A stretch of 64,000 nt of DNA from Lachnospiraceae bacterium oral taxon 500. GTDB lineage: Bacteria; Bacillota; Clostridia; Lachnospirales; Vallitaleaceae. Under the pieces are notes generated by a model. That model saw only the letters and a program-made list of their open reading frames with translations. It was not told the DNA's origin and did not search any database. Shown piece after piece: positions 5,535 through 58,751 of this stretch. The translations under genes were made by a program, and so were the position numbers. The stretch's first letter is position 1. Every line of letters starts with the position of its first letter. The DNA is taken from assembly GCA_002999035.1 (NCBI GenBank), contig CP027241.1, positions 2,742,195-2,806,194 of the forward strand. Direction: 5' to 3'.

Positions 5535-5642
5535 TTCTCTATTTTAGCAATATTATACAAATTTATAACCGTTCCGTACCGCCTCCTTGGATACAGGTTT
5601 GAGCACGCTCTCCCCGGCAATCAACAACAACATCTGCTGTAA

Positions 5643-5950
5643 TCACAGTTCAGGCAAGCTGCACCGATAATTCGCTTGCGCGAATTATCGGTGTCTGCGT
5701 TCCGCAAATAGATATTTATCCATGCCACGACAAGGGAGAGCAAGCTCTCCCCGGCATAGCAGCCACAACATCTGCTGCAACTACAGTTCAGGCAAGCCAT
5801 TCGCAATTCGTTGAAATGAATTGCAATTCCACTTTATCGACGAATTGCTCATGTTTGCGTTCCGCAAATAGGTGCTTATGGTTGATATGCCTCCGGAGAG
5901 CTTGCTCTCCCCGGCAATCAACCATAAGCACCTGCTTGCCTGAACTGTGA
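5643..5950. repeat. Nested palindromic repeat element with 17-bp terminal inverted repeats
   Basis: The element is bounded by a perfect 17-bp inverted repeat, TCACAGTTCAGGCAAGC at 5643-5659 and its complement at 5934-5950, ending at the dnaX stop codon. A third copy of CAGTTCAGGCAAGC starts near 5784. Inside are a 14-bp hairpin (5662-5675 with 5680-5693), a 16-bp hairpin (5871-5886 with 5917-5932) that encloses a smaller GGAGAGC/GCTCTCC hairpin, and two copies each of a GAGAGC..GCTCTCCCCGGCA module and of TGCGTTCCGCAAATA. No transposase is encoded. Related arms occur at 41903-41940 and 58678-58751. The short open frames here are artefacts of the palindromes. The element fills most of the 544-bp gap between murR and dnaX. 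Confidence 0.75.
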
Positions 5951-7549
5951 TCACCTCATTTCTATTTCAAAGTCAATGTTGCGGCGGAGGTCGGCTACTG
6001 CATTTTTCAGTTCCTGCGCCCCTCGTTTATGCCGGTTTTCATATTCCTGAACGGAAATAATCTGCAAATTAAAGTTTTTTTGAAACTTTTCCGCCAAAAA
6101 CTCCGCTATCCGCTCCTTATACTCGCTTTTTTCAATATAATCCGCGCCGGCGCTGCTGTCAATTACAATCAGCAGCGTGCCGCCGCCTGCTTCGGCATAA
6201 AAAGGCATAGCTTTTTCCAGAGCAATATCAACAAACGGATTCAGGGCAAAATGCAGCCCCGGCCAGGCCGCGATGACCGCTTTGATATCCTCCGGAAAGG
6301 CAGCTGTTTCAATCGGCGGCAGCGTCGGCTGGGCTTTCACCGGTTCGCCGCCTTTTTCCGCCGGCCGCCGTGCCGGCTCGGCCGAATGCACCGGCCCCTC
6401 AGCCAGACGGTTTTCAACCTCCGTCAACCGCCGCAGGATATTGGCCTCGCTTTGATCCACTTCCGGCCGGCACAGCTTAATCCATTCCAGTTCCAGCAAT
6501 ATCCGCTTATTGCTTTCATAGCGCATATCGGCTTCCAACTGCGATAATGACTTGATGATATACATCAAAAAGTCTTCCGTACACAGTTCCGCCGCCGCCC
6601 GCAAAGCCAGCAGATTTTCCTCCGCCAAATCCAGCAGTTTTCCCGGCTGAGGCATGGTCTTGACAATCAAAAGATCGCGTAAATAGCTGATTTCCCCCAG
6701 TACCAGCTGCTGCAAATCCCGGCCCTGCATCAGCATCTCATCGGTTTCCGTCAGCAGCGCCGTAATTTCCTTTTTCAGCAAATGCGCCGTGATTTTTTCA
6801 TAAACGCCGCTGTCAACCGCTCCGAGCAAGCGCAGCACTTTCTCCAAAGTCAATTCTTCGCCCAGATAAAAAGCCAGACAGCGATCCAAAATCGAATGCG
6901 CATCGCGCAGTGCTCCATCCGCGGTTTTAGCAATAAAACGGAGCGCTTTTTCTTCAAACGCAATTCCTTCCTTATTTAAATAGGTCTGCAATACCATTTG
7001 AATATCACCGCCAGCAATCCTTCGAAAATCATAGCGCTGACAGCGGGATAAAATCGTATCCGGTACCTTGTGCGGATCGGTCGTCGCCAAAATAAACATG
7101 GCATGCGCCGGCGGCTCTTCCAAAGTCTTTAGCAGAGCATTGAACGCTCCCGTAGACAGCATATGCACCTCGTCAATGATATAAATTTTATAGCGGGCGC
7201 CGGCCGGCTGGTAGCGAACGTCCTCGCGCAGTTCGCGGATATTATCAACGCCGTTGTTGCTGGCAGCATCAATCTCCATGATGTTCAAGTCCCGGCCTTC
7301 CAAATCCCGGCGGCAGTTTTCGCATTGATTGCAGGGTTCGCCGTCCTGCGGATTCAGGCAATTCACCGCCCGAGCAAATATTTTGGCGGTCGAAGTCTTA
7401 CCGGTACCCCTGGTGCCGGTAAATAAATAAGCATGGCTTAACCGGCCGGAACGCACCTGATTTTTTAAAGTCTGAACAATTGCTTCCTGACCGATTACTT
7501 CGGCAAAGGTCTGCGGTCTGAGTTTTCGGTAAAGCGCGGTGTATGCCAT
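5951..7549 (-). CDS. dnaX: DNA polymerase III subunits gamma/tau (clamp loader)
   Basis: This 532-residue AAA+ ATPase loads the beta sliding clamp. It has a Walker A motif GTRGTGKTS (G45-S53), a four-cysteine zinc module (C64, C73, C76, C79), Walker B IIDEVHML, and an SRC arginine finger (LSRCQRYDF). Domain III follows, then a variable C-terminal tau region. I chose the ATG at 7549 (MAYTALYRKLRPQ, the family start) because a longer reading frame to 7651 would run through the SRP RNA gene. A GAGGAGG-type site precedes it. I see no obvious A-rich slippery site for frameshifting. The usual ybaB-recR genes do not follow; a repeat element does. Confidence 0.96.
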   Translation of the reverse strand: MAYTALYRKLRPQTFAEVIGQEAIVQTLKNQVRSGRLSHAYLFTGTRGTGKTSTAKIFARAVNCLNPQDGEPCNQCENCRRDLEGRDLNIMEIDAASNNGVDNIRELREDVRYQPAGARYKIYIIDEVHMLSTGAFNALLKTLEEPPAHAMFILATTDPHKVPDTILSRCQRYDFRRIAGGDIQMVLQTYLNKEGIAFEEKALRFIAKTADGALRDAHSILDRCLAFYLGEELTLEKVLRLLGAVDSGVYEKITAHLLKKEITALLTETDEMLMQGRDLQQLVLGEISYLRDLLIVKTMPQPGKLLDLAEENLLALRAAAELCTEDFLMYIIKSLSQLEADMRYESNKRILLELEWIKLCRPEVDQSEANILRRLTEVENRLAEGPVHSAEPARRPAEKGGEPVKAQPTLPPIETAAFPEDIKAVIAAWPGLHFALNPFVDIALEKAMPFYAEAGGGTLLIVIDSSAGADYIEKSEYKERIAEFLAEKFQKNFNLQIISVQEYENRHKRGAQELKNAVADLRRNIDFEIEMR

Positions 7550-7573: not shown

Positions 7574-7835
7574 CCACACATATCCCGTCGACAATGCCTT
7601 TCCGAACGCTTCTTGGATTAACGGCTCAAATCCGGCTACCCCACGGCACATGAAAGTTTCTGCTTAGTGCTGCTTCCGTCAAGATCTGACACGATTCACA
7701 GATTTCCATTGCGTAGGACCAAACTCTCAACACCATTGCCCCAAGGCTGCTTCACAAAGCCAAGCCTCTGTTCAATATCACCCCTGCTATAGCGGATTGC
7801 AGGTTCAGGGCGCCGCTACCTCCCCGGCTGTGTGG
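7574..7835 (-). ncRNA. ffs: Signal recognition particle RNA, large bacterial type
   Basis: On the minus strand the Alu-domain consensus GGGGAGGTAGCGG..CCTGCAATCCGCTATAGCAGGG occupies about 7777-7826. The S-domain tip for Ffh binding, TGTCAGATCTTGACGGAAGCAGCA, lies at about 7666-7690. The 5' end CCACACA (7829-7835) pairs with the 3' end TGTGTGG (7574-7580), giving about 262 nt. This is the size of the Bacillus-type RNA with an Alu domain. It lies directly upstream of dnaX, as in many Bacillota, and probably shares its transcript. Confidence 0.93.
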
Positions 7836-20611: not shown

Positions 20612-20875
20612 AAAAAGTCCTTTGTATCTTTCAATACAAAGGACGAATTATCGCGGTACCACCTTTTTTCCAATTTTCATTGGCGCTCTCTCGCGTCTGA
20701 CAACGCTGTTTCTCTATAACGTGAGACCAATCCGTCAATTCCTAATTTGCTTTTCAGAATGAACCTAAGAGATGATTTTCAAAATCTGTCTTTTAGCAGC
20801 TCACACCAACCGCTGCCTCTCTGATAAAATCCATGACCTTTACTCGTTCTCTATAATCGGCAATGTTTTATTTGA
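20612..20875 (-). promoter_or_regulatory. T-box riboswitch, isoleucine specifier (AUC)
   Basis: On the minus strand the T-box core GGTGGTACCGCG is at 20652-20663, followed by an intrinsic terminator (stem 20617-20644, then TTTTT). Stem I is recognisable from AGAGAACGAGTAAAGG near 20848 onward. The specifier region reads GAAAATCATCTCTTAG; aligned with the second T-box in this window, the codon is AUC (the next triplet is also AUC), hence tRNA-Ile. A gene for a branched-chain amino acid carrier follows, in agreement. Confidence 0.93.
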
Positions 20876-40779: not shown

Positions 40780-41178
40780 TTATACTCTTCTTCTCTTCGG
40801 CGGGCGGCAGCCGTTATGCGGTACCGGCGTTACGTCCTTAATGCTCGTTACTTCCAGGCCCGCTGATTGAAGCGCCCGAATGGCTGCTTCCCGACCCGAA
40901 CCCGGTCCCTTAACCATGACCTCAACTGTCTTTAATCCATGCACAAGAGCGGCTTTGGCTGCCGTTTCCGCTGCCATCTGAGCGGCATAGGGCGTCGATT
41001 TCTTGGAACCGCGGAAACCCAATCCGCCGCTGCTGGCCCAGCTTAAAGCATTGCCTTCTGCATCGGTCAATGTCACGATTGTATTGTTAAAGCTTGACTG
41101 AATATGAGCTTGTCCGCGTTCAATATGCTTTTTAACGCGCTTCTTAGCGACTCTTTTTACAACATTTTTCTTAGCCAC
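40780..41178 (-). CDS. rpsK: Ribosomal protein S11
   Basis: This 132-residue small-subunit platform protein has [43 protein letters not shown] and the C-terminal [18 protein letters not shown] chose GTG 41178 (MAKKNVV) because AGGAGG lies 10 bp upstream; a TTG three codons earlier is too close to that site. Confidence 0.97.
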
Positions 41179-41199
41179 GAATCTCAAACCTCCTTCTTA

Positions 41200-41902: not shown

Positions 41903-41940
41903 AAGTTCAGGCAGGCGGCTATGTAAGCTTGCCTGAACTT
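41903..41940 (-). repeat. Inverted repeat of the GTTCAGGCAAGC family, probable rpmJ terminator
   Basis: AAGTTCAGGCA(G/A)G at 41903-41915 pairs with CTTGCCTGAACTT at 41928-41940. The arms match those of the elements at 5643-5950 and 58678-58751. On the minus strand it follows the rpmJ stop by 16 bp and precedes TTTAAACAATTTTCTTGC, so it may stop or slow transcription ahead of the new rpsM promoter. Confidence 0.65.
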
Positions 41941-54670: not shown

Positions 54671-54760
54671 ACGACAAGTGGTGACTGTACATCCTGCCGA
54701 GTGTTTCTTCTCTTCAAACACCCATAAACTGTATGTTTCCTTGTACAGTGATCTTGTCGT
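54671..54760 (-). promoter_or_regulatory. Hairpin-rich leader of the S10 operon (candidate L4-type control element)
   Basis: In the leader of about 210 nt between promoter and rpsJ, ACGACAAG..CACTGTACA pairs with TGTACAGT..ACTTGTCGT (arms 54671-54691 and 54741-54760). An inner GTGTTT/AAACAC hairpin is at about 54700-54722. The structure ends about 20 bp before the ribosome binding site. Autogenous control by L4 is known for S10 operons elsewhere; here it is inferred. The rest of the gap shows no gene. Confidence 0.6.
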
Positions 54761-54847
54761 CTGTTTCGTGAACTAGACTCGCTCTGCCGGAATACCCTAA
54801 AACATTTTAGCAACCTCCGGCTTCACCGCTCTTATCACAACTTGGTT

Positions 54848-58370: not shown

Positions 58371-58625
58371 GTCCTTTGTATTTTTCAATACAAAGGACGA
58401 ATCTCTCGCGGTACCACCTTTTTTCCGAATTACTCGGCACTCTCGCATCCAACAATGCTGCTGCTCGATAACGTGAGCTCAACCCGTCATTTCCTACTGC
58501 AATTTCAGAATGAACCTAAAAGACTACCTTCCAAACCGGCATTTCAATAGCTCTCACCACCCGCTATCTCTCTGCGCAAACACACGGCTCGTACTCCTTC
58601 TTTATCCTCGGCGCTGCTTATTTAT
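58371..58625 (-). promoter_or_regulatory. T-box riboswitch, valine specifier (GUA)
   Basis: The minus strand carries the T-box core GGTGGTACCGCG (58407-58418) and a terminator stem (58371-58398) followed by TTTTT. The region GGAAGGTAGTCTTTTAGGTTC aligns with the first T-box; at the same specifier position it reads GUA instead of AUC (the next triplet, GUC, is also Val). tRNA-Val is thus the likely effector. Confidence 0.92.
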
Positions 58626-58677: not shown

Positions 58678-58751
58678 GTTCAGGCAAGCGATTTATATAT
58701 GAGCAATTTGGCGAAAGTCATTTCGGCAAATTGCGAGTGTGTTGCCTGAAC
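58678..58751. repeat. Palindromic element of the GTTCAGGCAA family
   Basis: Outer arms GTTCAGGCAA (58678-58687) and TTGCCTGAAC (58742-58751) enclose a 14-bp near-perfect hairpin (58703-58716 with 58721-58734, GCAATTTGGCGAAA). It is a single-unit relative of the composite element at 5643-5950. It sits between the Val T-box promoter and the dehydratase-like gene; the rest of the gap to 58861 shows nothing else. Confidence 0.7.

Follow-up and report, generated by a model that had tools for sequence, protein, structure and literature searches.

In the window, i.e., the whole stretch of 64,000 nucleotides of the genome of Lachnospiraceae bacterium oral taxon 500 that was analysed, the stop codon of dnaX (5951–5953; gene named by NCBIfam) is adjoined by the A-side terminal inverted repeat (TIR) of a small palindromic unit. 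The segment in which this unit lies, 5643–5950, had been put forward in a preliminary description as a composite nested palindrome. Its ends, 5643–5659 and 5934–5950, are exact reverse complements over 17 bp, as stated there, and a repeat search lengthened the arms to 21 nt at 95%. The internal hairpins and repeated modules were recovered as nested inverted and direct repeats, and the sole listed ORF of at least 60 aa lying mostly inside the segment is a mechanical 61-aa ORF (5621–5806). The inverted-repeat bounds were thus confirmed; the view of a single composite unit was not, since the limits 5643–5950 are the outermost TIRs of an array (Table 1). When positions 5590–5960 were folded and compared with dinucleotide-preserving shuffles, z was −12.3 on the plus strand and −10.7 on the minus strand, with 0/100 shuffles as good on either strand. 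Head-to-tail arrays were seen at the loci L067, L091 and L120 as well as in the window (5600–5945), where unit 2 is without a proper left TIR.

Table 1. Positions of the units, their parts and the derived forms in the window.
Feature	Position	Strand	Basis
Full unit 1 (160 nt; TIR, hairpin A, C, hairpin B, TIR)	5786–5945	−	Covariance model R1, 124.8 bits (unit 1 is a row of alignment A1, hence part of the model that scores it)
Unit 1 left TIR, GTTCAGGCAAGC, A side	5934–5945	−	Exact pattern match
Unit 1 hairpin A, long arm pair	5870–5933	−	Inverted repeat I1; A1 columns 13–78
Unit 1 small hairpin C, TGCG-GAA-CGCA	5856–5866	−	A1 columns 82–93
Unit 1 hairpin B, CATGAG...CGAATG type (tandem G-A mismatches)	5798–5853	−	Inverted repeat I6; A1 columns 97–152
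Unit 1 right TIR (GCTTGCCTGAAC on minus strand)	5786–5797	−	Exact pattern match
Array unit 2, left TIR degenerate, right TIR 5648–5659	5648–5781	−	R1, 78.1 bits; direct repeats D1 and D3
Truncated third unit, hairpin A remnant	5600–5647	−	Direct repeat D2, copy 5601–5630
TIR-only derivative, 34 nt	41905–41938	+	R1, 21.0 bits, E 0.0098
Internal-deletion derivative, 74 nt, hairpin B kept	58678–58751	+	R1, 28.2 bits

The arms had been reported to reappear at 41903–41940 and 58678–58751, each time around a different inner palindrome. The reappearance was found at both sites. At the former a single mismatch is present in the left arm (GTTCAGGCAGGC), and just 10 nt are enclosed instead of an inner palindrome; at the latter there are two mismatches in the right arm, and a hairpin B of the same family forms the interior. 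With up to two mismatches allowed, the 12-mer GTTCAGGCAAGC occurs 16 times in the window versus 5.54 expected, and 0/100 shuffles contained as many. Ribosomal protein genes lie near the TIR-only derivative (rpsK was identified at 40780–41187). Other Rfam matches in the window were an S10-Clostridia leader (54754–54834), T-box leaders (20636–20866 and 58390–58617) and a large SRP RNA (7574–7835), which is consistent with a Clostridia-type genome.

Copies, Placement and Fold in the Home Genome

The exact 12-mer GTTCAGGCAAGC is present in 71 copies (29 + 42) in the complete 3.2-Mb genome, so that the element is not limited to the three sites noted in the window; about 0.4 copies are expected for a random 12-mer, and the reversed-pattern control gave 0. 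A blastn search of this genome with the window site gave 79 matches with an E of 0.01 or less, which were grouped into 67 clusters (66 taken as the stretches L061–L126, the 67th being the window site). The covariance model R1 gave 129 matches on both strands at E up to 0.01, corresponding, with overlaps of up to 40 nt permitted and 150 candidates scored, to at least 86 units at 67 loci, in agreement with the dispersed non-coding family proposed in the preliminary description. Several units are present at 13 of the 67 loci, and full units measure 132–160 nt. More than 500 bp away from the R1 loci lie 27 of the 71 exact 12-mers, which represent solo or short forms.

Placement was tabulated with a rough ORF caller for the 46 R1-matching loci in the fetched stretches, 45 of which could be classified: 31 lie between same-direction genes, 10 between divergent and 4 between convergent ones, and a single locus of the 46 was flagged inside an ORF. 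The 3′ end of the upstream gene is faced by the B side in 23 of the 31 same-direction loci and the reverse is found in 8 (p 0.011). The A-C-B strand is usually antisense to the neighbouring genes and, therefore, not usually part of a neighbour's transcript. Replication orientation was judged by GC skew and counted by eye, L101 (skew near 0) being assigned to the positive-skew arm; 27 of 41 loci are oriented opposite to the leading strand (p 0.06).

On one strand, the unit runs from TIR GTTCAGGCAAGC through hairpin A (21 pairs and an apical stem, its tip usually GCTTGC), an ATT linker, hairpin C (TGCGGAACGCA or variants) and hairpin B (14 pairs) to TIR GCTTGCCTGAAC. Alignment A1 contains 30 full units of the home genome, one overlapping false pair having been dropped beforehand. 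From this alignment RNAalifold, unaided, recovered hairpins A and B together with the TIR stem, 34 of 46 pairs having changes on both sides. Hairpin C was not recovered from A1 by this program and is the weakest part of the fold (73% of cells paired). In the named structure 89.6% of the 1696 cells of A1 pair (1459 are Watson-Crick and 61 G-T) and 37 of 57 pairs show changes on both sides, neither value being reached in 500 shuffles; when the partner was slid by one to three columns, pairing fell to 32.8–41.6%.

Alignment A2 comprises 46 matches from 36 loci in 15 other genomes (see below). Filtering gave a full-length subset of 35 rows from 14 genomes, 12 of these rows from genome G381, the remaining rows being for the most part matches of the same palindromes that are partial or lie on the reverse strand. 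In A2, which was fitted to the model and leans towards the structure, both-side changes were counted in 56 of 57 pairs, and 0/500 shuffles reached that count. In the 35 full-length relatives the unpaired letters are also kept, both at the apex (C 34, T 33, Y 35, G 34) and in the linker (A 31, T 35). The apex stretch contains GC[TC][TC]GC in 34/35 relatives and 22/30 own units, versus 2% of the shuffled relatives' stretches, and tandem G-A mismatches are present in hairpin B in 15/35 relatives and 5/30 own units. G-T exceeds A-C by 61:41 in own units (p 0.06, not significant alone) and by 77:38 in the relatives (p 0.0004, counted from the model-fitted alignment), which suggests that the A-C-B strand is the folded one. 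A fold under selection is supported statistically by these alignments.

Related Elements and Their Ends

No match to the element was found by blastn in 58 relatives, and R1 matched none of 21 other genomes of the own family, of which two belong to the same genus. A search with dnaX gave distant relatives only, at 37–54% identity. When R1 was run on 392 genomes of the order, the own genome included, with eight candidates scored per genome, 15 others matched: 11 in the sister family f6, 3 in f18 and 1 in f9. A closer look with R1 at these 15 gave 29 matches in G381 and 1–4 in each of the other 14, the architecture being the same, the stems different and the TIRs mostly different. Model R2 was built from A2, to which G381 and G122 had given rows among the 40 genomes of f6; it matched 28 of these 40, in 27 of 39 genera, with 54 matches in G381, 34 in G410, 28 in G412 and 21 in G413. 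In a phylum-wide sample (eight candidates per genome) 5 of 398 genomes matched, namely the own genome and four of f6, all of the same order. The home genome is an outlier among the family members searched, suggesting that the element was acquired from outside.

The exact TIR-pair pattern had 0 matches in the genome-contig and viral-contig collections, from which the records of the own genome may have been left out. By blastn, own and G381 elements were unmatched in plasmids and phages, and a G410 element was unmatched in plasmids. Among the TIR patterns searched in viral contigs, one gave 0 and later ones 10 and 9 stretches, with the fold only in L310 and L314.

Near-identical copies in G381 start with GTAACAGTTCAGCC and end with GGCTGAACTGTTAC, and they are flanked by identical 8-bp repeats, e.g., TTTTTTAG, AGCATTAA and GACATATC. 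Over G381, G410 and G412, 8-bp duplications that agree in at least 7 of 8 positions flank 20 of 42 elements; in 2000 shuffles the mean was 0.96 and the highest count 6. The 42 are all the pairs that the script found with up to three substitutions in the TIRs; doubtful pairs were counted, and elements with missed TIRs (e.g., L279, L202 and L212) were left out. Flanks of two elements in IMG/VR viral contigs match, by eye, 8/8 and 7/8. The 12-mer GTAACWGTTCAG occurs 72 times in G410, 183 times in G412 and 14 times in G420 (control 0). Mobility is shown by these duplications in the relatives, and the MITE-like character suggested in the preliminary description gains from them and from the many TIR-bearing copies. 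G410 also contains short forms, of 33, 79, 80 and 98 bp, whose 8-bp repeats are perfect as read from the flanks; as the 33–98-bp forms are without most of the fold, the latter may be dispensable for insertion. The short forms may also have shrunk after insertion and are, therefore, no proof of dispensability.

In the home genome a fixed-offset test gave no clear excess of duplications and a free-offset test a modest one, 7/8 or more being reached at 10 of 45 loci versus 3.8 expected. The check for target-site duplications advised at the outset thus had a clear outcome in the relatives and a modest one at home. The own copies are read as mostly old, with clear TIR cores and duplications mostly eroded.

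A transposase with matching ends had also been proposed for search. None was recognised in the stretches examined from these draft genomes, twenty from G381 (mostly solo TIRs) and fourteen from G410 and G412, three ORFs having been run against Pfam; in four of the fourteen, facing TIRs lie kilobases apart. The solo TIRs of G381 were considered as ends of a larger element, and the candidate ORF at a contig end was a PEP-utilising enzyme. A 3.5-kb stretch between facing TIRs in G410 encodes an AAA-ATPase-like and an AMP-binding protein and no transposase. A composite transposon was considered for own copies 2–4 kb apart and rejected, the seven intervals holding host ORFs that look ordinary by position and sequence start.

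GTAA ends and 8-bp repeats are typical of IS66, and an IS66-type MITE resembles the element in the GTAAC ends and in the duplication length seen in G381, G410 and G412. IS66 (PF03050), present in 10 of 18 genomes searched, is missing from the own genome as well as from two of the same genus, and GTAA-type ends were found at none of six IS66 loci scanned in other genomes. One of these loci has clear inverted ends of another kind and the others are without convincing ends. An IS66 partner is, on these results, unsupported.

Resemblance to Clostridiales-1

At gathering thresholds Rfam gave nothing at the window element and only an rRNA in nine relatives' loci. At permissive thresholds the full model of Clostridiales-1 (RF01699) matched the window unit with 28.8 bits (E 1.5e-4 for 371 bases). 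In a 17-locus run, full-length matches were obtained to own units in L071, L091 and L118 (39.1, 35.7 and 32.5 bits; E 4e-5 to 0.002) and none in L095, L073, L096, L083 and L067 (5 of the 8 own loci). In the nine relatives' loci of this run the element was matched only in L175 (over the full model, 28.2 bits, E 0.03), and in L178 a match of 41.4 bits lies at a distance from the R1 element. A separate run left the elements in L281, L124, L290, L310 and L208 unmatched; its one match in L208 is a true RF01699 copy apart from the element. The match is on the A-C-B strand in 5/5 elements overlapped, and all matches to elements are below the gathering score of 48 (best own unit 39.1 bits). In the reverse test, R2 was run against nine RF01699 copies in seven G381 loci and gave, on the right strand, two whole-model matches (L236:4276–4398, 29.7 bits; L225:3744–3851, 22.0 bits) and a partial one.

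Common to the element and RF01699 are the closing stem, a GCUUGC apex hairpin and an ACAUGAG...CGAAUG hairpin, all on the same strand, although the tandem G-A form of hairpin B, which is the RF01699-like type, is found in just 5/30 own units. The element differs by the small hairpin C between A and B, and a third, GAUUGCGGGAG-type hairpin of RF01699 (GCGGGAG...CGGAG internal loop) is absent from A1. The ends differ too: GTTCAG-type with 8-bp duplications in the relatives of the element, TGATACC...ACATC with 5-6-bp flanking repeats in the RF01699 copies of G381. The preliminary statement that no named family fits is accordingly to be modified, as the fold resembles Clostridiales-1, and it keeps its force in that the matches stay below the gathering score. 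In view of these sub-threshold matches we call the element a putative distant cousin of Clostridiales-1 and not a member.

Six RF01699 copies were counted in 93.9 kb of G381 stretches, which had been chosen for TIRs, in addition to that in L208 and to further copies found by blastn. In L225, L226, L230, L236, L208, L174 and L200 the copies are dispersed and almost identical, are flanked by repeats of 5-6 bp and have ACATC at the end of a 3′ extension. Eight copies have both ends defined, and with one base of slack their flanks agree 5/5 in six and 4/5 in two, the chance rates at these low-complexity targets being 14% for 5/5 and 45% for 4/5 or better. This is suggestive of the Clostridiales-1 copies in G381 being mobile themselves. 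Clostridiales-1 is tabulated by Weinberg et al. 2010 (PMC2864571) with "y" for RNA, "n" for cis-regulatory and the taxa "Clostridiales, human gut".

Nature of the Element and Rival Readings

The element is probably a non-autonomous DNA transposon of a MITE-like kind, with a body selected to fold, single-stranded, into a four-way-junction cloverleaf. Dispersed copies, TIRs, a covarying fold and conserved unpaired motifs belong to the established features of the family, as do the 8-bp duplications in its relatives. A trans-acting DDE-type transposase would recognise the TIR, GTAAC[A/T]GTTCAG... in the relatives and about G[T/C]TTACAGTTCAGGCAAGC in the own genome, and copies would be inserted into AT-rich sites via 8-bp staggered cuts. 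The A-C-B strand would work folded, as single-stranded DNA in transposition or replication or as RNA. The copies of the own genome would be mostly old, and tandem arrays and internal-deletion derivatives are found among them. The superfamily would take in the orphan "Clostridiales-1 RNA", which would be the body of a mobile element and not an ordinary sRNA gene.

The strong covariation (37/57 pairs in own units, 56/57 in relatives) would be expected as well of a family of structured non-coding RNA genes of the Clostridiales-1 kind, multiplied by duplication and working as RNA, with the TIRs as closing stem. CTTG, GNRA-like and tandem-GA loops are stable, and all three lie on the A-C-B strand, the same strand that resembles RF01699. 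We regard this reading as rather unlikely, because the flanking duplications in the relatives are of fixed length, the element was not found in 21 family relatives, and the A-C-B strand is antisense to same-direction flanking genes at 23/31 loci. Covariation could also be mimicked, in the absence of any selection on the fold, by quasi-palindrome correction, in which hairpins are repaired against themselves; the arms are indeed near perfect and dominated by Watson-Crick pairs (1459/1696 own cells, 61 G-T). Such repair would not keep an unpaired apex, a linker and tandem G-A mismatches across unrelated stems, which makes it improbable as an explanation.

REP/BIME-like palindromes, moved as single-stranded hairpins by a Y1 transposase (RAYT or IS200/IS605), would share the folded strand and could account for the weak replication-orientation bias (27/41, p 0.06). 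The anatomy, with long TIRs and with 8-bp duplications in the relatives, speaks against this part of the preliminary description and leaves it a very small probability; insertions of the IS200/IS605 type are not known to make a target duplication. Smallest of all is the chance that the copies are spreading intrinsic terminators or insulators, the transcript-ending hairpins also considered in that description. Several copies adjoin gene ends, and five Ts are present within 25 nt upstream of the A side in 6/30 units, but a five-T run within 20 nt past the fold was found in 1/30 units on each strand.

The transposon reading places the element beside the bacterial MITEs that fold (Correia, ERIC, RUP, BOX and SPRITE), which, as treated in the main text of PMC10969869, are likewise small and non-coding, with TIRs, AT-rich intergenic targets, stable folds and clusters. 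The element differs from those treated there in that covariation maintains its four-way junction in many genera and across sequences with little in common; that main text mentions neither Clostridia nor Lachnospiraceae. With REPIN/BIME and RAYT (PMC3116915 and PMC6006769) it has in common the dispersed palindromes and the folded strand, and it differs in its long TIRs and, in the relatives, target-site duplications. A literature search that included the TIR letters found, among titles and opening lines of abstracts, no description of these elements; it predates the link to Clostridiales-1, so that a paper on Clostridiales-1 mobility could have escaped it.

A more speculative extension, possible though rather unlikely, is that the unit of selection is the folded nucleic-acid body instead of the ends. 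A cloverleaf superfamily including Clostridiales-1 would then be carried across the order by transposon ends of two or more kinds, one with GTAAC-type TIRs and 8-bp duplications and the other with TGATACC/ACATC ends and 5-6-bp repeats. If so, bacteria would have a counterpart of SINEs in this module of structured RNA or single-stranded DNA, whose fold is kept while sequence and ends are replaced, and the module would aid the spread of the element or render it harmless to the host.

Clostridiales-1, an Rfam RNA family listed in PMC2864571 and without known function in the entry given there, seems to be part of a mobile superfamily that is common in f6 (28/40 genomes), in which case some "structured RNA candidates" found by covariation are transposon bodies. 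The question is then raised why a small transposon retains a covarying four-way junction. The relatives offer near-identical copies with exact ends, with which the enzyme can be sought directly and transposition tested.

Other small elements with GTAACAGTTCAGCC-type ends were observed in the viral contigs L304 (662–741) and L302 (1621–1725); their flanks match 8/8 and 7/8 by eye and they have no match to the cloverleaf model, and ends of this type may be common to several bodies. In a 202-bp class of G381 (L203–L211) the loop of hairpin B is enlarged by an additional insert, which is a further palindrome with ACATGTCCTTG and GGTACCCTTGGGGTG.
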